This document shows positions 27,144-59,010 of a DNA stretch of 64,000 nt, piece after piece; within the stretch, counting starts at the first letter, position 1, and each line of letters opens with the position of its first letter. The notes below the pieces were generated by a model that saw nothing but the letters and a program-made list of their open reading frames with translations, was not told where the DNA came from and ran no database searches. The stretch lies in NCBI RefSeq assembly GCF_014696615.1, contig NZ_JACJQJ010000032.1, forward strand, positions 1 through 64,000, written 5' to 3'. Both the position numbers and the translations under genes were made by a program. The stretch comes from Nostoc linckia FACHB-104. GTDB lineage: Bacteria > Cyanobacteriota > Cyanobacteriia > Cyanobacteriales > Nostocaceae.

Positions 27144-28460
27144 ATGCTTAAACCTCTTTTGCTGTCAGGATGGTTCCGCGTGCAACCATTTGTTAAATAT
27201 GCTGTCGTTGCGATACTGATCGCACCTCTCGTGGCAGCATCAGGTCACTCCACCTCAGCTAAGCAATCAGAAGTAGCAAATAGCACTCCTGATCTAGAAA
27301 AATCAAGTTCATTACCAGTAGAAATGGCTACTGGTAATGAACCTAATGTAACTGAATTATTAAAAGCAGCTGCAAGTGACTCCTTGGCAGGAGAATCTGA
27401 CTCTCAGCCACAAGTAATGGCTACTGTTGGGGAACCACAATTATTACCACCAGAAGCAATTGATCCTTCGGCAGTAGCAACAAATTCTCATTCTCTACCT
27501 AGCAGCAATGTACCTGTAAGCGATCCATTATCAGTAGTGGAACTTGCACCATCGACAAAGCTGACTTCTAGTCAATTAAATTTATTAAAAAAATTAAAAG
27601 ACTCGAAAATCCAATCTTTGGTAGCAGGTAATTCTCAGGTAAAAGAGTTAAATATTGCTCAATCATTGACAGCAACTCAACCAATTCCCAGAGACTCACA
27701 ACCAAACTTTGCAACGGAAGTTCCGGTTTCTGAACAACCAGGGCCAGAACAAACAGCACCAGCTGATCCTATAGGTAGTCCTCACCCCATTCCTTGGAAA
27801 TGGATCACAGCTACTCAAGAAGCTCTTGGTTCTCAAGGCCGTTCGGGAGTCCGTTACTACCGCAGTGTGCCTGTAGTGTCTCCTGATGGTAAGTATGTCG
27901 TTTATAGTAGAGTGCGCCTAGAAGTACAACCCCAAATGTACAATAGCCGTGTTACTAGCGTTCTGTTTGTTGAAGATGTCCAAACCAAAAAGTTACGGGT
28001 AATTGCTTCAACTTCTGTACTTAGCGATCCACTGTTACAAACAAAAGCGCAGTCAGGAGAAGCAACCCAGCCAAACGGAACAATTGGTGTATTAGTTCCT
28101 GTGAGTTGGTCAGAAAAAGGCGATCGCTTCTTAGCTCGTCGGTTTGAAGGTATATTCAATACAGCAGACTCTACAGATCGTGCAGTGATTTGGGATCGGC
28201 AAAATAATCTTGCTAACACTGTTTCTCCTACACAAGCAGAAGATGAACATGAAAAGATAGCAGTGTTATTAGGTTGGAGTAAGAGCCAACCCGATCACGT
28301 GCTATTTAGAGCTGGTGAACTAGGTGAAGAAGACTGGCCTTTAGTAAAAGTGGCAAGTGATGGTAAAACTGTAACTACAAATACAGATACAGATGAGCCT
28401 ATTACTTTTGGTCAAAAGCTAACAGAAGTTTGGGCAGGCCCACAGGTTGCTTATCGATAG
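27144..28460 (+). CDS. Exported or membrane-anchored conserved protein, unknown
   Basis: I do not recognise a named family. The 438-residue protein has an N-terminal hydrophobic segment (YAVVAILIAPLVAASG), likely a signal or anchor. A low-complexity Ser/Pro/Glu/Val linker follows to about residue 210. The globular C-terminal part (about 215-438) starts IPWKWITATQEALG and includes VSPDGKYVVYSRV, reminiscent of a single TolB-like beta-propeller blade, and SWSEKGDRFLARRFEG. Similar proteins seem to occur across cyanobacteria. The protein probably acts outside the cytoplasmic membrane. It is monocistronic with a terminator. Confidence 0.7.
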   Translation: MLKPLLLSGWFRVQPFVKYAVVAILIAPLVAASGHSTSAKQSEVANSTPDLEKSSSLPVEMATGNEPNVTELLKAAASDSLAGESDSQPQVMATVGEPQLLPPEAIDPSAVATNSHSLPSSNVPVSDPLSVVELAPSTKLTSSQLNLLKKLKDSKIQSLVAGNSQVKELNIAQSLTATQPIPRDSQPNFATEVPVSEQPGPEQTAPADPIGSPHPIPWKWITATQEALGSQGRSGVRYYRSVPVVSPDGKYVVYSRVRLEVQPQMYNSRVTSVLFVEDVQTKKLRVIASTSVLSDPLLQTKAQSGEATQPNGTIGVLVPVSWSEKGDRFLARRFEGIFNTADSTDRAVIWDRQNNLANTVSPTQAEDEHEKIAVLLGWSKSQPDHVLFRAGELGEEDWPLVKVASDGKTVTTNTDTDEPITFGQKLTEVWAGPQVAYR

Positions 28461-50514: not shown

Positions 50515-53500
50515 CTAATCCCCAATCCCCCGATATGTGATTGTAAACGCTGCCCAATAATAGGGATGATTGTACAATTTTTGTTCTGGGGAAAGTTTAC
50601 TGCTTCTGTACATTTGTGTAGCTACATGAGTCCGGATTCTTAAATCTTCAGGATGGAGATTATTTAGTAAATCCTCATACCATTTTGTCAGGTCTCTGGC
50701 AGTTAGTTCCCTCAGCCAAGCTGTAACTTCAGCTAATGTATTGATTGCTGATTTATCTGGTTGTAGTCGTCGGTAAAATTCTAAAACTACTAGGTCATTA
50801 GCAACTGATTCTACAGTCCATAAAGTACTGACAACTTGCGATACGCCTACATTTAGAAAAGCATTGATTAAACTGACATATTCGCTAGTAATAGGATGAC
50901 TGTTATTAGTTGTAATTTCGCAAGCTGATAAGTTAACTAGGTTGTAGCTCACTAAAGATGGCTGACTAATTTCTGCTAAAGTGAGCTTATCTTCACCTGC
51001 TAGAACTAATTCTGATTTTTGCGGTTCACTTAAGTTGTTAATGATATGACCTGTAAAGTGAAAAATATGATAATTATCAATTAGCGCATTTTTGACGATG
51101 TGTTTGTCAGCTTGTATGCCTTGGATGCGGTAGGAATTGGGGAACAGGTGGTTAACAACTTCTGATTGCAGTTTGGCAAATTTTAAAGGGGGATAATCTG
51201 TACTTTGAGGATGTTCAACGCTGAGCAGTACTTGATTGTGTTTATTACCAATTGTTTCTGGTTTTATGGATACTCCGATTTGGACACTAGGCAAGTAGCT
51301 AATTGTGAAATTTGACTCTAAATTTGATAAATACTCTGATTGAGTAGGGATAGAAAATAGTGCATGAAGAGGCAATCTTTGTAAATCACGGTGGGGAATT
51401 AAAATTAGATGAGTAATTCCTTCTAGTTCCTGGATAATACTAGAAATATTCAGGATATCTTTTAGCTCTGATAGCCTTTGTTCCATATCCATTCGCCAGG
51501 AATGGTTGATTTGATTTTGTTTATCATCCGAAAGGCTACTATATTCTTGATATTGTTGATTCCAATCTTCTAGCCAATCTTCAAAGGCAATTAAACGTCT
51601 AACTCCTTCCGGTAGAGGTAATTCTTGTAAACGTGATGGTGTTTTTCCTAAGTTAAATACACCCGTATCTTGCATAGGTGTAAATATGAGGATGGGTGAA
51701 GGAGCTTGATCCTTAAGCACAAAGGTGTGCAGAGAAGCTGGGCTAATATGCCAGTAAATAATTGCTGTTTGAGGATTTAATAGCAGTTGAACTTCCGAAT
51801 AACTGATTGATGCAATTTCTTCTTGCCAACCATCAAGCTGCCAAGTTAAACAAGCATTTTTAGCTTGTTCGGCAATTTCCCAAGCTTCTACTAAATCACC
51901 ATACTCTACTGCTAAATCAACAATTAATTGCCGCAAGCCAGCAAATCTTAAAGCTAGCTGCTTTTTACTGTCATCGGTACGGGTGGAATCAGTGAGTAAT
52001 TCTTTTAATAAATCGGTACTGTATTGCAGTAAGTCTTGAGCTTGTGCTGTTTGTCCCAAACCGACAAGGGTTTTGATGAGGGATTGCAACACTTCCAAAT
52101 GCAACTGCGGAAAATCTTCGCTAGTCAGAGTTAATAGTGCTTGATTATACTCCGCTACAGCTTTTTGCCAAGGAGTGCGGCTAGCTGAATTTTTCTTACC
52201 GTAATCGTAATGAGTATTGGCGATCGCTAAATGCAATCTACCCCAACCTTCGGGGTGAGTGTCTGGGCGGACATATTTTAAGCCGGCTTCGTAGCTAGCT
52301 ACTTTACCCTCATAGCCAGTTTGCTTCAAGGCGGAATTGGTATCTGTAATTTTCGTGAATAAACCGGAAAGTGCATCAACATCCACTAAATTACCAGCAG
52401 CTGTTCCCCTCCCAATCCAAGCTTCCCAGTAATCTTGTTTAATTTGTAAAGCATTATCATAGGACGCGATCGCATCGGCATAGCGTCCTAAATAAAACAA
52501 GGCGACTGCTTGGTTATACCAGGCTAAATGGAATTCGGGGTTGATGGCGATCGCTTTATTGTAGGAGTCGATAGCTTCTTCGCTTCTACCCAAATTATCT
52601 AAAGCGACACCTCGGTTATACCAAGCTAAGTAGAAGTCGTTGTGAATGGAGAGGGCTTTATCCCAAGAGGCGATCGCTTCTGACCATTGCCTTAAATTAA
52701 ACAGGACTACGCCACGATCAATCCAGACTTCATAATAATCGGGGTCAATTTCTAAAGCTTTATCGTAAGAAGCGATCGCTTCTTCATGTTGCTCGTTGAT
52801 ACCTAGTGCTATGCCTCGGTAATACCAGTTTTCTGGGTCTTGTGGTTCCAAAGCTAAGGCTTGATCGTAACTTTCTATAGCTTCCCATAACAGCCCTAAC
52901 TTCATCAACGCTAAACCCCGACTAGCCCAAGCTTCCGAGAAATCGGGCTTAATGGCAATTACTCGCTCAAAGGAGATAATCGCATCATCAAATTGCCCTA
53001 ATTCTCCGAGAATTCCCCCCCGGTTATACCAAGCTTTGTAGTAATCGGGACGTAGTTCTATGGCTCTATCGTAGGATGCGATCGCTTCATTAAAATGTTC
53101 TAAATGAAACAATGTCAAACCCCGGTTGAACCAGTATTCATCCACATGGGGTTTCAGTTCTATGGCTGCATCATAAGAAGCGATCGCACCTAATAAATCG
53201 CCCGTTCTCGCTTGTTGCAACCCTTGATAAAACCATGCTTGCGCCCGATCAATTTGGGGCTGGGGTACAATTTGCGAACTTTGGCGTTGAATGGCTAGTT
53301 CCGAAGCCAGTTCTTGGACTAAAGAAGTACTTTGATCCAATCTGACTAACAACTCATCCAAAGCTTGAGCGACGTTAGGCTCTAAGTTTGCTAGGGATTT
53401 ATCCCATGTTGGTGCTTCGGAGATTTGGGCGGGTTGCTCCTCATCTGGGGGAACAAGGCTAGTATCTTCCTGTGGTGGCGTGGGGGTAGTTGCTTCTGGT

Positions 53501-54303
53501 TCTGGGGTTGCAATCTGTGGAGGTTCTTCCGGAAGCGGATTTAAGTCAGTAACTGGCGTTAAGATTTCCGGTTCTTCATCATCAGGCGGTTCTAAGAACA
53601 GATCGAATAAATTGGCGATCGCGTCATCTTCTGAAGGATTGAGGATAGCGGCTTTTGTAGCAGCATCTTCGCCGTCATATTCCCATAAAACTTCGCCAAT
53701 ATTGCCTGTCCATGCTTCTTCCACAGACATCATCTCTGGTATGGGAATTGTGGATTCGGTATCTTCCTCCTCATAATCCCATAATCGTTCGCCCAAGTTG
53801 CGGATCAATTCCTGTCCTGGAGTATTGTGAAAATTATCTTCAGGGGTAGTGCTTTCCATGCCCAGATGATGATCAAAATCATCAATTGCTTCATAACTAC
53901 TCGCGGAGTTACGCTTTAACAAAGTCAAACCAATGTCATAAGCAAGTTCTCCGATTCTGCCAACACCAAGTTCACCCAGTTGGATCATTCGCCCTGCTAT
54001 TTGCTGGTTTGGTGCCGGGGAATTTAACAATCTTTCACCAAAATTCAGCAACCAATCTATCCAGCGTTCATCAGAAATCCGATGTTCCATCCGTTGCAGG
54101 TACTTCAGCGCCCACTGACGGCCTCTGGCTTGATGCACACCTTCCAGCAGCTGGGTAAATAACAGTTCTAGATCCGCATTGGTAAGTTCCGGCGGTGACT
54201 TTGTCACCCCGTATCCCCTTGCGGTATTTCGAGAACCAGCTTTTTGATTACTAAAAGGAAGCTGGAACAAGTTTTTTAGCCATTCAATTAGACGCCTGAG
54301 CAT
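50515..54303 (-). CDS. TPR-CHAT protease-like protein
   Basis: A 1262-residue protein in three parts. Residues 1-135 form a basic, helical module shared with the upstream gene (MLRRLIEWLKNLF, LLEGVHQARGRQW, LGELGVGRIGELAYDIG). An acidic, Pro-rich linker follows to about 350. About ten 34-residue TPRs follow to about 650 (repeats such as AWYNRGVALDNLGRSEEAIDSYNKA), then a helical region. The C-terminus is a CHAT (caspase-like) domain with the catalytic His in HFTGHI and Cys in NLSACEITT; both are present. CHAT proteins are peptidases of the caspase fold, often in bacterial defence or cell-death modules. Substrate and trigger are unknown. It follows its short paralogue by 140 bases on the same strand. 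Confidence 0.87.
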   Translation of the reverse strand: MLRRLIEWLKNLFQLPFSNQKAGSRNTARGYGVTKSPPELTNADLELLFTQLLEGVHQARGRQWALKYLQRMEHRISDERWIDWLLNFGERLLNSPAPNQQIAGRMIQLGELGVGRIGELAYDIGLTLLKRNSASSYEAIDDFDHHLGMESTTPEDNFHNTPGQELIRNLGERLWDYEEEDTESTIPIPEMMSVEEAWTGNIGEVLWEYDGEDAATKAAILNPSEDDAIANLFDLFLEPPDDEEPEILTPVTDLNPLPEEPPQIATPEPEATTPTPPQEDTSLVPPDEEQPAQISEAPTWDKSLANLEPNVAQALDELLVRLDQSTSLVQELASELAIQRQSSQIVPQPQIDRAQAWFYQGLQQARTGDLLGAIASYDAAIELKPHVDEYWFNRGLTLFHLEHFNEAIASYDRAIELRPDYYKAWYNRGGILGELGQFDDAIISFERVIAIKPDFSEAWASRGLALMKLGLLWEAIESYDQALALEPQDPENWYYRGIALGINEQHEEAIASYDKALEIDPDYYEVWIDRGVVLFNLRQWSEAIASWDKALSIHNDFYLAWYNRGVALDNLGRSEEAIDSYNKAIAINPEFHLAWYNQAVALFYLGRYADAIASYDNALQIKQDYWEAWIGRGTAAGNLVDVDALSGLFTKITDTNSALKQTGYEGKVASYEAGLKYVRPDTHPEGWGRLHLAIANTHYDYGKKNSASRTPWQKAVAEYNQALLTLTSEDFPQLHLEVLQSLIKTLVGLGQTAQAQDLLQYSTDLLKELLTDSTRTDDSKKQLALRFAGLRQLIVDLAVEYGDLVEAWEIAEQAKNACLTWQLDGWQEEIASISYSEVQLLLNPQTAIIYWHISPASLHTFVLKDQAPSPILIFTPMQDTGVFNLGKTPSRLQELPLPEGVRRLIAFEDWLEDWNQQYQEYSSLSDDKQNQINHSWRMDMEQRLSELKDILNISSIIQELEGITHLILIPHRDLQRLPLHALFSIPTQSEYLSNLESNFTISYLPSVQIGVSIKPETIGNKHNQVLLSVEHPQSTDYPPLKFAKLQSEVVNHLFPNSYRIQGIQADKHIVKNALIDNYHIFHFTGHIINNLSEPQKSELVLAGEDKLTLAEISQPSLVSYNLVNLSACEITTNNSHPITSEYVSLINAFLNVGVSQVVSTLWTVESVANDLVVLEFYRRLQPDKSAINTLAEVTAWLRELTARDLTKWYEDLLNNLHPEDLRIRTHVATQMYRSSKLSPEQKLYNHPYYWAAFTITYRGIGD

Positions 54304-54443: not shown

Positions 54444-55151
54444 TCATGATTCTGTTGGTTCTGTAGCCCCTTGTTCTGTAGCTGCTTGATTAGCAGCATG
54501 GTATTGATTAATTAATTCTTGAATGATGACTTGTGGATCGGTCGTCTCCAGCCCCAGTTGTTGGGCAACTTGCTGGCATAAATTTTCATCTTGCTGCATC
54601 ATTACAAACAACTGTTCTAAAGTAACAGTTTCGTAGGCTTCTGTTGAATTATTTTCGGCTGTGGCTGTTGCAGTTGCTACAGAGTCGATTTCTGGGGGTG
54701 GTGAGGGGTTGGTAGCATCTGGCCCATCATATTCCCAAATTGGTTCACCTTGATTGCGTGTCAACAATTGCATTCCGATATCATAGGCAACTTCTCCTAC
54801 TTCACCAACGCCTAAATCACCCAACTGCACTAACCGCGCTGCTAATTCATTATTGGGTGTAGGTGCTGCTAGTAATCTTTCCCCCAAGCGTCGCAACCAC
54901 TCTACCCAACGTTCAGTAGGGATGCGATTTTCAATATTATGTAGCCACTTTTGTGCCCATGCTTGACCACGTGCTTGGTGTACTCCTTCCAACAATTCGT
55001 TGAACAGAAATTCTAAATCGGTATCGCTGAGTGTTGGTGGTGGTTGTTTGGGTACATCTGCACTCACTTGAAAGCGAGTTTTTTTACGCCCAAACAAGCC
55101 TTGAAACAAGTTTTTCAGCCATTGAATTAACCTCCTGAGCATTTGCTGCAT
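54444..55151 (-). CDS. Paralogue of the TPR-CHAT N-terminal module
   Basis: A 235-residue protein whose first 135 residues are clearly homologous to the N-terminus of the downstream TPR-CHAT protein: MLRRLIQWLKNLFQGLF, FLFNELLEGVHQARGQAW, RWVEWLRRLGERLL and LGDLGVGEVGEVAYDIGMQ. It then carries an acidic linker (PIWEYDGPDA, also seen in the long protein) and a C-terminal helical segment (LEQLFVMMQQDENLCQQVAQQLGLE) with no CHAT or TPR. It may be a partner or regulator binding through the shared module. No known domain name comes to mind. Confidence 0.75.
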   Translation of the reverse strand: MQQMLRRLIQWLKNLFQGLFGRKKTRFQVSADVPKQPPPTLSDTDLEFLFNELLEGVHQARGQAWAQKWLHNIENRIPTERWVEWLRRLGERLLAAPTPNNELAARLVQLGDLGVGEVGEVAYDIGMQLLTRNQGEPIWEYDGPDATNPSPPPEIDSVATATATAENNSTEAYETVTLEQLFVMMQQDENLCQQVAQQLGLETTDPQVIIQELINQYHAANQAATEQGATEPTES

Positions 55152-55674
55152 GATTGTATCTCCTCCCCTTGGTGCCGCAAAGTCCTAGATGACGGAATTA
55201 ATCGCCTCTTGATTCTGGACTTTTTTGAGTTTGATTACCCTAAGAATTGTAGCGATCGGTGTTTATTTAGTAACTGATTGACTGGGCAAAATGGAGCTAT
55301 GGGAAATAACTATAACCATCCACTTTGTAAATTAATTTGCAGTACTGATGGCGGACTAGGCTTACCTGGCCTGAATCCGTCATCATTTCAAACACCTACT
55401 AACGCACAGAGCTAAAAGCTATAAAGTACTTTTAGGTGTGATGACTTTTTTAAAGTAGCCCTATTTAGGCTAAACCTGGGTATCTATCGACTAAATTAAT
55501 ATTTTGTTCAGATTTCTTTAGCGTTTAGTTGATCGCACTGTACTATAGCGTTAATCTGCAAAACTTTCTATAACTCATCGTGAAACGCCAAAGTTCCATC
55601 CCAGAGCAAACTATGGTTCGGTTCTGGTAGTCTACAATAGTAAAATCTTCAACTCTACTGGGTGCTATCATCTT
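55152..55674. other. Intergenic region, no gene seen
   Basis: Spacer between the divergent 55151 gene and dnaX; promoters for both must lie here. No repeats or RNA recognised. Confidence 0.4.
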
Positions 55675-58600
55675 ATGTCTTACGAACCCCTGCACCATAA
55701 GTATCGCCCAAAGAGTTTTGCGGAATTAGTCGGACAAGAGGCGATCGCTACTACCCTCACAAATGCGATCAACTCAGCTAAAATCGCCCCCGCCTATTTG
55801 TTCACTGGCCCTAGAGGTACAGGCAAAACTTCCAGCGCGCGCATTCTTGCCAAATCCCTCAATTGTCTAGCAAGTGGTAAGCCTACCGCTCAACCTTGCG
55901 GTAAGTGTGATGTCTGTCAGGGAATTACTCAAGGCTACTCTTTGGATGTGATTGAAATCGACGCAGCCAGCAATACTGGTGTCGATAATATCCGAGAAAT
56001 TATTGAAAAAGCGCAGTTTGCTCCTGTGCAATGTCGCTACAAGGTGTACGTCATCGACGAATGTCTAACTGGGGATTCTTTAGTCTTAACTGATGAAGGA
56101 CTCTTCAGAATTGACGACCCTACTATTCAAGGCAAAAAAGTTTTAAGTTACAACGAATTATCAGGTAATTGGGAATTTAAGCCTGTTGTACGGTGGTTAG
56201 ACCAAGGAAAACGTCAAACTTTGGTTATTAAGACAACTCATGGAGAAATTAGATGTACTGGCAATCATTTGATTAGGACAGATCGAGGATGGATACCAGC
56301 AAGGGACGTAAAAGAAGGAGTGAAGATACTATCGCCTGTGAATGTGGATGTGGTAGCCTCATTTACAAATTTGGCACGGATGGACGCATCCGTCGATTTG
56401 CCTCAGGACACCAATTTAAAGGTAATACCTACGGGCAAAAATCCTATAACTTGCAATCTATTCTGGAACAAGCTAAGTTACTCCGTCCCTTCTGTCGGTG
56501 CGGTTGTGGAGAAAAACTCGATGTCCCCAACTTTTTACAAACAAAAGGTAGAGGAATTAAGAGCATACAATCTAACTGGGAAAGACATCCATTTAAAAAA
56601 GGACACGGAATTTGGGAAAAGCGCACAGAAAATTTCGTTTCCAGTGCAGAAGTTCTGCCAACAGAAAAACTTGGACTTATCTACGGAACATTACTTGGGG
56701 ATTGTTCCATCACTTATCCCAACAAATATAGTAGATTCCCGCGATTGGCTTGGACACACGCGGAAAATCAACAAGAATGGTCTAATTACAAAGCGTCTCG
56801 CCTTCCAGAACTGCGTCCAAAGCAGAGACTTACATCGAACAAAGGATACGGAAGCAGCTCAATTACCTGCAATACAGCTTGCCATCCCCAACTCCAAGAA
56901 ATTTTTGAGATCGTTAAACCAAATGGAGATGAAAAAATCGTCTCTATGTCGTGGCTTAATAGAATTTCTCCAGAAGGACTTGCTTGGTGGTACATGGATG
57001 ATGGCTCACTCAGCCTTAGCCCTCAAGGAAGCCCACAAATCCAGTTACATACAGAAGGATTTTCCGCCCAAGAAAATCAAATCATTGCCAGTTGGCTTAC
57101 AGCAATGGGATACCCAGCAGCAACAAAGTTTTACACCAGAAGTAGTACAGGTAAACAATATCACTACATCTGGATGGGTGCCGACACCAGTAGAAAATGG
57201 CTGGCCGCTATCCAGCAGTATTCCATCCCGACAATGGAATACAAGTTTGGCAACGGTAGAATCTGTCCACCTCGCTGGGGTTGAGCCAGTTTATGACATT
57301 GAAGTCGAAGATAATCACAACTTTGTGGCTAATGGGCTTTTAGTGCATAATTGCCATATGCTCAGTACCCAGGCATTCAATGCGTTATTAAAGACTCTCG
57401 AAGAGCCACCTAAACACGTGGTATTCGTCTTGGCAACAACCGACCCCCAGCGAGTATTGCCGACAATTATCTCTCGCTGTCAAAGGTTTGATTTTAGACG
57501 TATTAACTTAGAGGCGATGGTCAAGCATTTAAGTGCGATCGCCCAGAAAGAAAATATTAATATTTCTCTAGATGCTGTAACTTTAGTTGCCCAAATTGCT
57601 CAGGGGGGATTGCGAGATGCCGAAAGCCTCCTCGACCAATTAGCGCTCTTATCAGGTGAAGTTACGCCGGATAGAGTGTGGGATTTAGTTGGTTCAGTCA
57701 GCGAACGGGACTTAGTAATATTATTAAGTGCGATCGCTCAGGATAATGCCGAAGCAGTTTTAGATTGCACTCGTAAAATTTTGGATCGTGGTCGAGAACC
57801 ATTAACTATTCTGCAAAATCTCGCGGCTTCTTACCGTGATTTACTCATTGCCAAAACTGCACCCAAGCGTCAAGATTTAGTTGCTTGTACTCAGCAAACC
57901 TGGCAAGCATTAATTGCATTGGCTCAGGAGCTAAACACCAGTACAATTTTGGCGGGACAGAAAAATTTACGCGAAGCAGAAGTACAAATCAAAAACACTA
58001 CCCAACCGCGTTTGTGGTTAGAGGTGACATTGCTGGGATTGTTACCTAGTGCCAACATTCCAGTGCAAGTTGCTAGCGTAGCACCCAGTAGAGTCAGCAC
58101 AGCACTACCCAGTTATTCTCCCACATATCCCCCACCTTCATCTCCCCCCATTTCCCCAACACCACAGCCAGCAAATAACACCTCTGCTGCTCAAGCAGTT
58201 TCATTACCTCAACGAGAAAATATTCCTGTTCCTCAACAATCTAGTCAGGTATCATCACCACCAACAGCAAATATTTCTGTTCCTCAACCGAATATTCAGG
58301 AACCGCCATTAAGCGTACCTGTACAACCAGCATCTTCCGGTGCAGATGTTGCAGAAGTGATAGAAACAACACAGTCTGACTTAACTCAAATTTGGCAGCA
58401 AGTACTTGGTTGTTTATTAAATCCTGGTAGTCAGGCTTTATTCAAGCAACATGGGCAATTGTTAAGTATCAATGATGGTTTAGCTCAAGTAGGAATGCCA
58501 CCAGCGCTAGTAAAGTTTGCTCAACCAAAAACGGTGGAAGTTGAAGCGGCATTTGAGCGAGTTTACCAACAGAAGGTAAAAGTTACTTGGGTTTCCAACC

Positions 58601-59010
58601 AATCTAAGAATGGGGCGATGAATGGGGGTAGTATAGCTTCACCCAAAGATTCTACTCGTGTTCAGCAGCCACCTGCGCCCAGATACAGTAATCAAAACAC
58701 ACCAGTAGCGCCGATACCGCAACCAGAAACCCCGAAAGCGCCACCAGTGCCAGCATCACCACCAATACCAACACCAGCAAGAAACGAGCCAGCTACAACA
58801 GCTAGAGGTGGTGTCCAAACTTTGCCCCCACCAACCCCTACACCTGCACCACCCCCTAGCGAATGGGAAACGGATGAAGTGGCGATCGCAGCTCAGCGAT
58901 TAGCAGAATTCTTTCAAGGACAAATTATTCGCTTGTCAGACGATGCTTTAGATTTTGGCGGTGCTATGGCTGATTCTGGCTTAATGGATGAAGCGGATCT
59001 TGATGATTGA
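55675..59010 (+). CDS. dnaX: DNA polymerase III gamma/tau subunit with an intein
   Basis: DnaX is the clamp-loader ATPase of the replicative polymerase. The precursor is 1111 residues; removing a 430-residue intein leaves about 681. Before the intein: GPRGTGKT (Walker A, 45-52) and zinc ligands Cys64, Cys75, Cys78, Cys81. The intein interrupts the Walker B/DExH motif after YVIDE (129), and the mature protein resumes with CHMLSTQAFNALLKTLEEPP, then the sensor sequence ISRCQRFDF. The C-terminal third is a long Pro/Ser/Thr-rich tail, as in tau. ATG 55675 is followed directly by MSYEPLHHKYRPK. Without splicing the ATPase would be broken, so splicing is essential. Confidence 0.95.
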   Translation: MSYEPLHHKYRPKSFAELVGQEAIATTLTNAINSAKIAPAYLFTGPRGTGKTSSARILAKSLNCLASGKPTAQPCGKCDVCQGITQGYSLDVIEIDAASNTGVDNIREIIEKAQFAPVQCRYKVYVIDECLTGDSLVLTDEGLFRIDDPTIQGKKVLSYNELSGNWEFKPVVRWLDQGKRQTLVIKTTHGEIRCTGNHLIRTDRGWIPARDVKEGVKILSPVNVDVVASFTNLARMDASVDLPQDTNLKVIPTGKNPITCNLFWNKLSYSVPSVGAVVEKNSMSPTFYKQKVEELRAYNLTGKDIHLKKDTEFGKSAQKISFPVQKFCQQKNLDLSTEHYLGIVPSLIPTNIVDSRDWLGHTRKINKNGLITKRLAFQNCVQSRDLHRTKDTEAAQLPAIQLAIPNSKKFLRSLNQMEMKKSSLCRGLIEFLQKDLLGGTWMMAHSALALKEAHKSSYIQKDFPPKKIKSLPVGLQQWDTQQQQSFTPEVVQVNNITTSGWVPTPVENGWPLSSSIPSRQWNTSLATVESVHLAGVEPVYDIEVEDNHNFVANGLLVHNCHMLSTQAFNALLKTLEEPPKHVVFVLATTDPQRVLPTIISRCQRFDFRRINLEAMVKHLSAIAQKENINISLDAVTLVAQIAQGGLRDAESLLDQLALLSGEVTPDRVWDLVGSVSERDLVILLSAIAQDNAEAVLDCTRKILDRGREPLTILQNLAASYRDLLIAKTAPKRQDLVACTQQTWQALIALAQELNTSTILAGQKNLREAEVQIKNTTQPRLWLEVTLLGLLPSANIPVQVASVAPSRVSTALPSYSPTYPPPSSPPISPTPQPANNTSAAQAVSLPQRENIPVPQQSSQVSSPPTANISVPQPNIQEPPLSVPVQPASSGADVAEVIETTQSDLTQIWQQVLGCLLNPGSQALFKQHGQLLSINDGLAQVGMPPALVKFAQPKTVEVEAAFERVYQQKVKVTWVSNQSKNGAMNGGSIASPKDSTRVQQPPAPRYSNQNTPVAPIPQPETPKAPPVPASPPIPTPARNEPATTARGGVQTLPPPTPTPAPPPSEWETDEVAIAAQRLAEFFQGQIIRLSDDALDFGGAMADSGLMDEADLDD
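56062..57351 (+). other. DnaX intein (in the dnaX frame)
   Basis: 430 codons in the dnaX frame. Block A starts with Cys1 (CLTGDSLVLTDEG). Block B is GEIRCTGNHLIRT with the conserved Thr and His. Block F/G is VEPVYDIEVEDNHNFVANGLLVHN, ending in His-Asn before extein Cys+1 (57352-57354). All splicing residues are present, so it should be self-splicing. Between about 56345 and 57250 the dnaX frame stays open, but the protein it reads is not an endonuclease; the endonuclease lies in another frame. The insertion point matches the site known from the Synechocystis DnaX intein, as far as I recall. Confidence 0.93.
56289..57284 (+). CDS. LAGLIDADG homing endonuclease nested in the intein, other frame
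   Basis: A 331-codon frame from ATG to TGA lies wholly inside the intein, shifted by two (equal to minus one) relative to dnaX. Its product is a LAGLIDADG endonuclease: motif 1 EKLGLIYGTLLGDCSI (Asp138), motif 2 EGLAWWYMDDGSL (Asp237/238), plus the in-between pattern of these enzymes. Ahead of it are two similar Cys-rich units: CECGCG (17-22) with SGH (39-41), and CRCGCG (69-74) with KGH (104-106), like the metal-binding units seen before many phage and intron nucleases. A weak AGGA site lies about 10 bases before ATG 56289. Such enzymes cut intein-less alleles so that the intein is copied. Confidence 0.88.
   Translation: MDTSKGRKRRSEDTIACECGCGSLIYKFGTDGRIRRFASGHQFKGNTYGQKSYNLQSILEQAKLLRPFCRCGCGEKLDVPNFLQTKGRGIKSIQSNWERHPFKKGHGIWEKRTENFVSSAEVLPTEKLGLIYGTLLGDCSITYPNKYSRFPRLAWTHAENQQEWSNYKASRLPELRPKQRLTSNKGYGSSSITCNTACHPQLQEIFEIVKPNGDEKIVSMSWLNRISPEGLAWWYMDDGSLSLSPQGSPQIQLHTEGFSAQENQIIASWLTAMGYPAATKFYTRSSTGKQYHYIWMGADTSRKWLAAIQQYSIPTMEYKFGNGRICPPRWG

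Follow-up and report, generated by a model that had tools for sequence, protein, structure and literature searches.

A predicted homing endonuclease gene nested out of frame within a cyanobacterial dnaX intein: one stretch of DNA, two frames, different selection

Can the same 1 kb or so of an essential bacterial gene be read as two proteins from one strand, and if so, what does selection maintain in each of the two frames? The dnaX gene of Nostoc linckia FACHB-104 raises this question. In the window, by which we mean the whole stretch of 64,000 nucleotides that was analysed, dnaX (DNA polymerase III gamma/tau) occupies positions 55675-59010 of the plus strand, as do all features described below unless stated otherwise. 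It is a single open frame of 1111 codons, and its product matches the Pfam families DNA_pol3_delta2, DNA_pol3_gamma3, DNAX_ATPase_lid and Intein_splicing. With all 1111 codons open, the host gene is not divided over two ORFs in the way of a fractured gene or a split intein. Elsewhere in the window, two neighbouring genes on the minus strand (50515-54303 and 54444-55151) encode proteins with a similar N-terminus, suggesting a duplication; judged by eye, the product of the longer one resembles a repeat protein that ends in a protease-like domain.

The insert in dnaX covers positions 56062-57351 and was delimited by its open frame, its end residues and Pfam. It interrupts DnaX after VYVIDE and before CHML, in a motif (VIDE followed by CH) that we take to be Walker B. 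As originally predicted, the dnaX frame runs through all 430 codons of the insert with no stop, and the splicing residues are intact: Cys1, TGNH (presumably block B), the C-terminal HN and Cys+1 are present, which are the residues of a class 1 intein. The Intein_splicing profile (PF14890) matches the insert with an E-value of 5e-14 and 52.9 bits, the Pfam cut-off being 35.8, and C1, T66, N68, H69, H429 and N430 are invariant in 23 of 23 inteins of a chosen set. AlphaFold models strands with a pLDDT of about 90 at both intein ends, as a Hint fold demands. The N-terminal half of the predicted Hint splicing domain (codons 1-95, 56062-56346), which holds the first four of these invariant residues, has a pLDDT of 86-95 in successive ten-codon blocks up to codon 90. 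The C-terminal half (codons 390-430, 57229-57351, ending in HN) reaches 80-93 from codon 391 and matches TIGR01443 (intein_Cterm) with an E-value of 5e-10. Codons 96-389 (56347-57228) lie between them, for the most part with a pLDDT of about 30; in the model of the splicing frame, the two Hint halves thus fold around some 290 disordered residues. This open, apparently unstructured filler overlaps the second gene.

That second gene corresponds to the frame of 331 codons for which LAGLIDADG motifs and Cys-rich units had been claimed, and both features are borne out. It extends over positions 56289-57284 (331 codons and a stop, with an ATG start) and begins at intein offset 227, which is 2 mod 3 and hence the -1 frame; codon position 3 of this homing endonuclease gene (HEG) is position 2 of the splicing frame. 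LAGLIDADG_2 (PF03161) matches the nested protein with an E-value of 2e-21 and 77.1 bits (cut-off 25), and it also matches 30 of 30 members scanned, all of them chosen as intact. In an alignment of 30 nested proteins (A1, likewise chosen as intact copies) the first motif, residues 128-138 (56670-56702), has an invariant D138, and the second, residues 231-239 (56979-57005), has invariant D237 and D238, so that the profile match is accompanied by two motifs with their acidic residues. We assume that the LAGLIDADG name, and the role usually given to the Asp residues, apply to these two motifs. The two Cys-rich units both read CxCxC; the first (C17, C19 and C21, 56337-56351) is at least 90% conserved in A1 and the second (C69, C71 and C73, 56493-56507) is invariant. 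The AlphaFold model of the nested protein has a mean pLDDT of 84.7, and its best Foldseek matches are I-SceI and I-WcaI, with E-values of about 1e-11 and TM-scores by target of 0.73-0.75. A search of NCBIfam with the nested protein gave no match, and its own genome has one matching place.

Is this arrangement a peculiarity, or even an error, of one genome? The original prediction had named two findings that would speak against it, namely a sequencing frameshift whose correction would put the endonuclease in frame with dnaX, and stop codons in the splicing frame of relatives. Neither materialised. When genome contigs were scanned for relatives of the nested protein, 55 loci emerged, of which 45 (L002-L046) are cyanobacterial and every one of these is a dnaX intein; the other ten (L047-L056) are Bacillota genes, free-standing as judged from ORFs. 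Together with our own copy, all 46 dnaX inteins (two of which, L021 and L033, end at contig ends) have the HEG at the same offset of 2 mod 3 and no stop in the splicing frame, while the third frame of the same inserts contains 12-36 stops. A sequencing frameshift as the source of the second frame is therefore untenable, because the identical phase recurs in 45 other loci, and in none of the 46 is the endonuclease in frame with its intein as in a canonical bifunctional intein. The HEG itself is less well preserved: it is broken by one to three stops in six of the 46 (L009, L011, L013, L014, L019 and L032), partly deleted in L042, L044, L045 and L046, and lacks the first Cys-rich unit in L039 and L040, and in all of these the splicing frame remains open.

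Since a scan with the HEG as a query is biased towards copies that retain it, the intein was also sought independently of the HEG in 386 evenly drawn cyanobacterial genomes. It was found in 32 of them, with no stop in any match, and all of these except that of our own genome, 31 inteins, were fetched; two are identical to earlier loci (L080 is L008 and L085 is L024). Nine are full inteins of 1290 bp each, with a stop-free HEG stretch nested in the same phase. The other 22 are shortened, and in 22 of 22 the length is divisible by three and the splicing frame contains no stop, so that the splicing frame is open in 31 of 31. Out-of-frame matches to the HEG at E<1e-3 persist in 16 of the 22, mostly as short end pieces to which conservation of the Hint code contributes. 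No in-frame match to the nested endonuclease occurs in the 31 survey inteins, and Pfam reports only Hint-type domains above cut-off, with no in-frame endonuclease domain, in the seven shortened inteins submitted to it. Another decayed copy, L113 (genome G439, contig C6), shows the end stage of HEG decay: its intein of 384 codons has no stop in the splicing frame, 20 stops in the HEG stretch and 36 in the HEG frame over the whole insert.

How surprising is an open splicing frame, given the protein that is encoded across it? For our own copy, the chance of a stop-free splicing frame given the HEG protein is 6.3e-7 with uniform synonymous codons, which agrees with the earlier estimate of one in a million; it is 1.3e-8 with the codon usage of dnaX and 1.1e-3 with that of the HEG itself. 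We scored this expectation in 39 inteins, 33 of them with a HEG of at least 323 codons. For these 33, the host dnaX codon usage predicts 8.3-15.0 splicing-frame stops and none is observed, with a chance of 1e-5 to 2e-11 per sequence; the HEG's own usage lowers the expectation to 4.3-8.7 stops and gives a chance of none of 6e-3 to 2e-5 per copy. Six broken HEGs, scored up to the first stop, gave mostly weaker values. Hence selection does seem to keep stops out of the splicing frame, with 8-15 stops expected for each full-length HEG from host codon usage and none observed, and relatives in phages whose splicing frame is split, described below, agree with it.

The pattern of substitutions shows what each frame is kept for. 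Over 32 inteins of equal length, diversity in codons 1-75 is highest at position 3 of the splicing frame (0.45-0.59). It is low at all three positions in codons 76-90, a stretch in which both proteins are under constraint. In codons of about 91-405 the fastest position is position 3 of the HEG, and from codon 406 or so it is again position 3 of the splicing frame (0.48-0.53). The phase of substitution therefore switches at both edges of the HEG, at the first edge within codons 76-105. A four-class analysis of the overlap in 31 intact copies (181 pairs at 72%-97% identity; the pair counts are non-independent, because the loci are related) gives a median dN/dS of 0.16 for the HEG, below 1 in 181 of 181 pairs. 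For the splicing frame in the core of the overlap it gives 0.74 (NN/NS), below 1 in 83% of pairs, and 0.78 (SN/SS, from 75 pairs with about six sites per pair). Given 0.16 against 0.74-0.78, the conserved product of the overlap is the nested protein, and the splicing frame is mainly kept open. Of the two measures proposed originally, dN/dS is about 0.16 for the HEG against about 0.75 for the splicing frame, and stop depletion shows as a splicing frame free of stops in 46 of 46. The ratio below 1 in 83% of pairs may point to a weak further constraint on the filler protein. Distances of the exteins and of the HEGs, compared for signs of recent homing, are correlated (r 0.49).

The nested frame in the dnaX intein, then, stands as it was described, except that it had been presented as a single case, and the same arrangement is found in other host genes too. 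Searches of viral contigs with the HEG alignment, and of phage records with the HEG itself, led to helicases. Nesting in the -1 frame is also present in inteins of ResIII/SF2-type helicases: L057 and L067 from IMG/VR (416 and 402 codons) and Xanthomonas phage FoX3 (314 codons). Each is inserted between DE and C, and each has no stop in the splicing frame where 5.1-7.0 are expected from host codon usage (chance 1e-4 to 9e-4) and 3.5-5.2 from the HEG's own usage (chance 3e-3 to 2e-2). Of 16 phage records matched, eight were taken in (FoX3, AN_ECEAS, ES, Ymer, Amona, KLEP7, LR756508 and LR756511), and a second FoX3 record, three of Pectobacterium and four of Salmonella were left out. Viral scans with the FoX3 endonuclease returned FoX3 itself only, those with the AN_ECEAS endonuclease nothing, and those with the L067 endonuclease two contigs already in the set and nothing further. 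L068 and L069 were considered as relatives and set aside; their match is confined to the Cys-rich part. As to annotation, the intein-bearing helicase of FoX3 (NC_055837.1, near 27420-28067) is called "head morphogenesis" in RefSeq and putative DNA helicase in the GenBank copy.

Four phages, AN_ECEAS and ES of Escherichia and Ymer and Amona of Pectobacterium (L071, L072, L075 and L077), have a helicase that is split at the intein. The host gene is divided over two ORFs as in a fractured gene, with the HEG overlapping each half in the -1 phase. AN_ECEAS and ES are identical at this locus; the split Intein_splicing matches of AN_ECEAS score 21.1 and 23.1 bits, under the Pfam cut-off of 35.8. Scoring of AN_ECEAS, Ymer and Amona (the latter two near-copies) gave 10, 13 and 13 splicing-frame stops within the HEG, against 12.2, 13.5 and 12.8 expected from HEG codon usage. 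Where the splicing frame no longer has to be translated in full, stop depletion is thus absent. The split helicases can be regarded as a natural control for stop avoidance, an imperfect one because their endonucleases are distant (24-26% identity) and lack a resolved place in the tree. In that tree of 34 endonucleases, 14 nested ones (dnaX together with L057 and L067) group at 92/93, just below the threshold of 95 that the program sets; FoX3 and the endonucleases of the split helicases have no resolved position, and many branches are long. Other inteins contain in-frame relatives (L073, L074, L058 and L076). Annotations at the four split loci range over hypothetical protein, minor tail protein, homing endonuclease, single-stranded DNA binding protein and DNA helicase.

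A further case lies in a UvrD-like helicase (L118; genome G520, contig C61), where an intein of 407 codons carries a LAGLIDADG_2 gene (E 2.7e-26) in the +1 frame (1 mod 3). Cys1, HN and Cys+1 are present, and Intein_splicing scores 33.3 bits, slightly under the Pfam cut-off. No splicing-frame stop is observed where 20.5 (host usage) or 14.5 (own usage) are expected, with chances of 2e-13 and 1e-8. A homologue in genome G167 has an uninterrupted LIDECQDLNP at the intein site, which supports the ends assigned to this intein. The +1 phase suggests a second, independent origin of the nested design, as far as one locus can. In the same UvrD-like gene of G167, a different in-frame insert is found elsewhere (L137, contig C5); it ends in HN before C and looks GIY-YIG-like by eye. 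Out-of-frame nesting is not general for the LAGLIDADG_2 family: across 292 cyanobacterial genomes there are 15 such places in 14 genomes, of which five are dnaX elements, nine are free-standing as judged from ORFs and one is an in-frame intein. Three free-standing genes (L127, L129 and L133 in genomes G251, G211 and G080) adjoin, by eye, dnd-like (DNA phosphorothioation) genes.

Where would translation of the nested gene begin? The putative start consists of AGGA (56275-56278), a gap of 10 nt and the ATG (56289-56291), which lies within GGA TGG, the splicing-frame codons for Gly and Trp. All 49 long inteins have an ATG at this position, and in 48 of them it falls inside a GGA codon of the splicing frame. 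The codon of Gly76 is GGA in 46 of 46, as compared with 30 of 49 at Gly4, 29 of 49 at Gly13 and 3 of 32 at Gly67; the start-site GGA is also retained in 18 of 22 shortened inteins. Of the 49 long inteins, 27 have a Shine-Dalgarno-like motif ahead of the ATG; the AGG codon that gives rise to it occurs in 14 of 22 shortened and 25 of 49 long inteins. Because shortened inteins have AGG at least as often as long ones, the data do not support selection for a ribosome-binding site, and we do not count AGGA as a conserved Shine-Dalgarno. A promoter of its own for the nested gene was likewise set aside, as promoter-like sites (four, with a mean of 3.6 in shuffles) do not exceed shuffles. In our opinion, independent initiation at the internal ATG is the simplest route to the endonuclease, and we infer it from the sequence.

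We consider it very probable that the dnaX insert is a mobile intein in which the splicing and the endonuclease functions are written over each other in two frames. The computations establish the architecture and its conservation, frame-specific selection, stop avoidance, predicted folds and loss by deletions that keep the frame. Protein splicing of this copy, and DNA cleavage and homing by its endonuclease, are what these features would imply. Translation of the dnaX frame would give the Hint halves joined by an unstructured filler of about 290 residues, and the insert would splice out of DnaX. The internal ATG in the -1 frame would give a separate I-SceI-like LAGLIDADG endonuclease of 331 residues with two Cys-rich units. 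The most likely target of this enzyme is an intein-free dnaX allele, cut close to the codons of Walker B, whereupon the element would be copied in by homing; the presence of the intein in 32 of 386 genomes is at most consistent with that. In the overlap, selection preserves the protein encoded by the HEG frame; its main effect in the splicing frame is to remove stops and frameshifts. A dual-coded stretch would be affordable in an essential gene because splicing would remove the translated filler.

Several other readings deserve consideration. In place of internal initiation, programmed -1 ribosomal frameshifting could fuse the endonuclease to the N-terminal Hint half. The HEG does lie in the -1 frame, other dnaX genes are known for -1 frameshifting, and a slippery-like AAATTTG is found at intein base 305 in 22 of 49 long inteins. 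However, no heptamer is common to all 49, and AAATTTG lies about 26 codons into the HEG, where it encodes conserved HEG residues and where a shift would drop the first Cys-rich unit. Further, the ATG is kept in every long intein, the HEG frame opens just one codon upstream of it in L010 and L045, and the UvrD-like case is in the +1 frame. We therefore find frameshifting unlikely. As for the suspicion that the second frame is a dead or chance ORF beside an intein that alone matters, HEG stops in six of 46 copies, and partial or nearly complete loss of the HEG in 22 of 31 survey inteins, could be cited for it. Against this, LAGLIDADG_2 is recognised in all 30 members chosen as intact, the motif Asp residues are invariant, the fold is predicted with confidence, and the HEG-frame substitution pattern, with its dN/dS of 0.16, is the opposite of neutral; we find this reading hardly credible.

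Conversely, the open splicing frame might be only a by-product of the composition and codon use of the HEG protein, with no selection on the splicing frame. The model with the HEG's own codon usage does cut the expectation, to 4.3-8.7 stops, but there are still none in 46 of 46, and the endonuclease genes of the split helicases have 10-13. Moreover, all 22 shortened inteins have lengths divisible by three, and L113, with 20 stops in its HEG stretch, has a splicing frame free of them, which leaves the by-product explanation very improbable. Least probable of all, to the point of being negligible, is that the insert acts at the RNA level, as a group I intron with a HEG, and is an intein in appearance only. 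The structural matches to I-SceI and I-WcaI, and the fact that I-SceI-like enzymes are mostly intron-encoded, would suit such an element. On the contrary, positions 55500-57700 give no Rfam match at gathering score, the Hint residues are invariant in 23 of 23 chosen inteins, and a Hint fold is predicted.

Returning to the overwritten mobile intein, we also entertain, tentatively and at slightly less than even chances, a broader reading. According to it, inteins with an overprinted HEG are a recurrent and hitherto undescribed architecture, which would have arisen at least twice (in the -1 frame of dnaX and SF2 helicases and in the +1 frame of the UvrD-like gene) and would offer a route to natural split inteins. 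On this route, stops in the splicing frame, together with a start of its own for the C-terminal half, would turn a nested intein into a fractured gene, as the phage helicases may illustrate. The existence of nested and split relatives in phages makes this one origin of split inteins testable. Irrespective of that reading, the dnaX inteins amount to about 1 kb of bacterial DNA in which two frames of one strand are coding, and the evidence for this comprises phase-specific selection, natural copies that have decayed, and split relatives freed from the constraint. Nesting would give the endonuclease a polypeptide, a start site and possibly a dose of its own, while the intein would still be hidden in an essential gene. 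The original suggestion that endonuclease dose is thereby separated from DnaX dose is a reasonable, if putative, idea.

How does the element compare with known systems? It resembles canonical bifunctional inteins such as PI-SceI in having a Hint domain with a LAGLIDADG endonuclease between its halves, and mini-inteins as decay products. Canonical bifunctional inteins encode the endonuclease as one domain of a single polypeptide, in frame with the splicing domain. The dnaX intein, unlike the PI-SceI type, has a distinct endonuclease gene in a different frame, and a disordered filler takes the place of the endonuclease in the splicing frame. Fractured genes, which Dassa et al. are said to have described in 2009 as split inteins with a HEG between the halves, share the position of the HEG, which in the four phages with a split helicase (AN_ECEAS, ES, Ymer and Amona) overlaps the two halves in the same -1 phase; the dnaX splicing frame differs in being unbroken, so that splicing would be in cis. 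The predicted fold of the nested protein is like that of I-SceI and I-WcaI, which are intron-borne, and its Cys-rich N-terminus lies outside the sequence match.

The intein of Synechocystis PCC 6803 (Ssp DnaX) is in the same host gene (PMC3620165, PMC3443213), and protein splicing has been published for an Ssp DnaX mini-intein (PMC3620165). The same source mentions putative complete or partial endonuclease domains, and the parts of these two papers available to us contain no mention of a second frame. The portions seen of PMC3229294, PMC6801210, PMC10448857 and PMC7765530 likewise contain no mention of a nested HEG. More generally, we recognised no intein with an out-of-frame endonuclease gene in the open-access literature, a coverage that leaves aside most subscription papers and bioRxiv, so that an earlier notice is possible. 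Inteins annotated with an "endonuclease domain" may hold the endonuclease out of frame. The closest parallel is ShiLan, in which a phage methylase contains an HNH gene out of frame and no splicing domain is present (Arsenault, Gosselin and Gogarten 2025, PMC11855218). To judge from the part of that report available to us, ShiLan and the dnaX element share a homing-type endonuclease out of frame in an uninterrupted host gene, with an in-frame reading that is poorly structured. ShiLan encodes an HNH enzyme and occurs in phages among the cases covered, whereas the dnaX insert has LAGLIDADG_2 together with a Hint domain and hence is not of the ShiLan type; the ShiLan filler is thought to be retained in the host protein because there is no splicing domain (PMC11855218). 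Out-of-frame HNH genes in phage methylases, outside any intein, are therefore known already from that work, and it is the nesting of an endonuclease gene within an intein that may, as it appears, be new.
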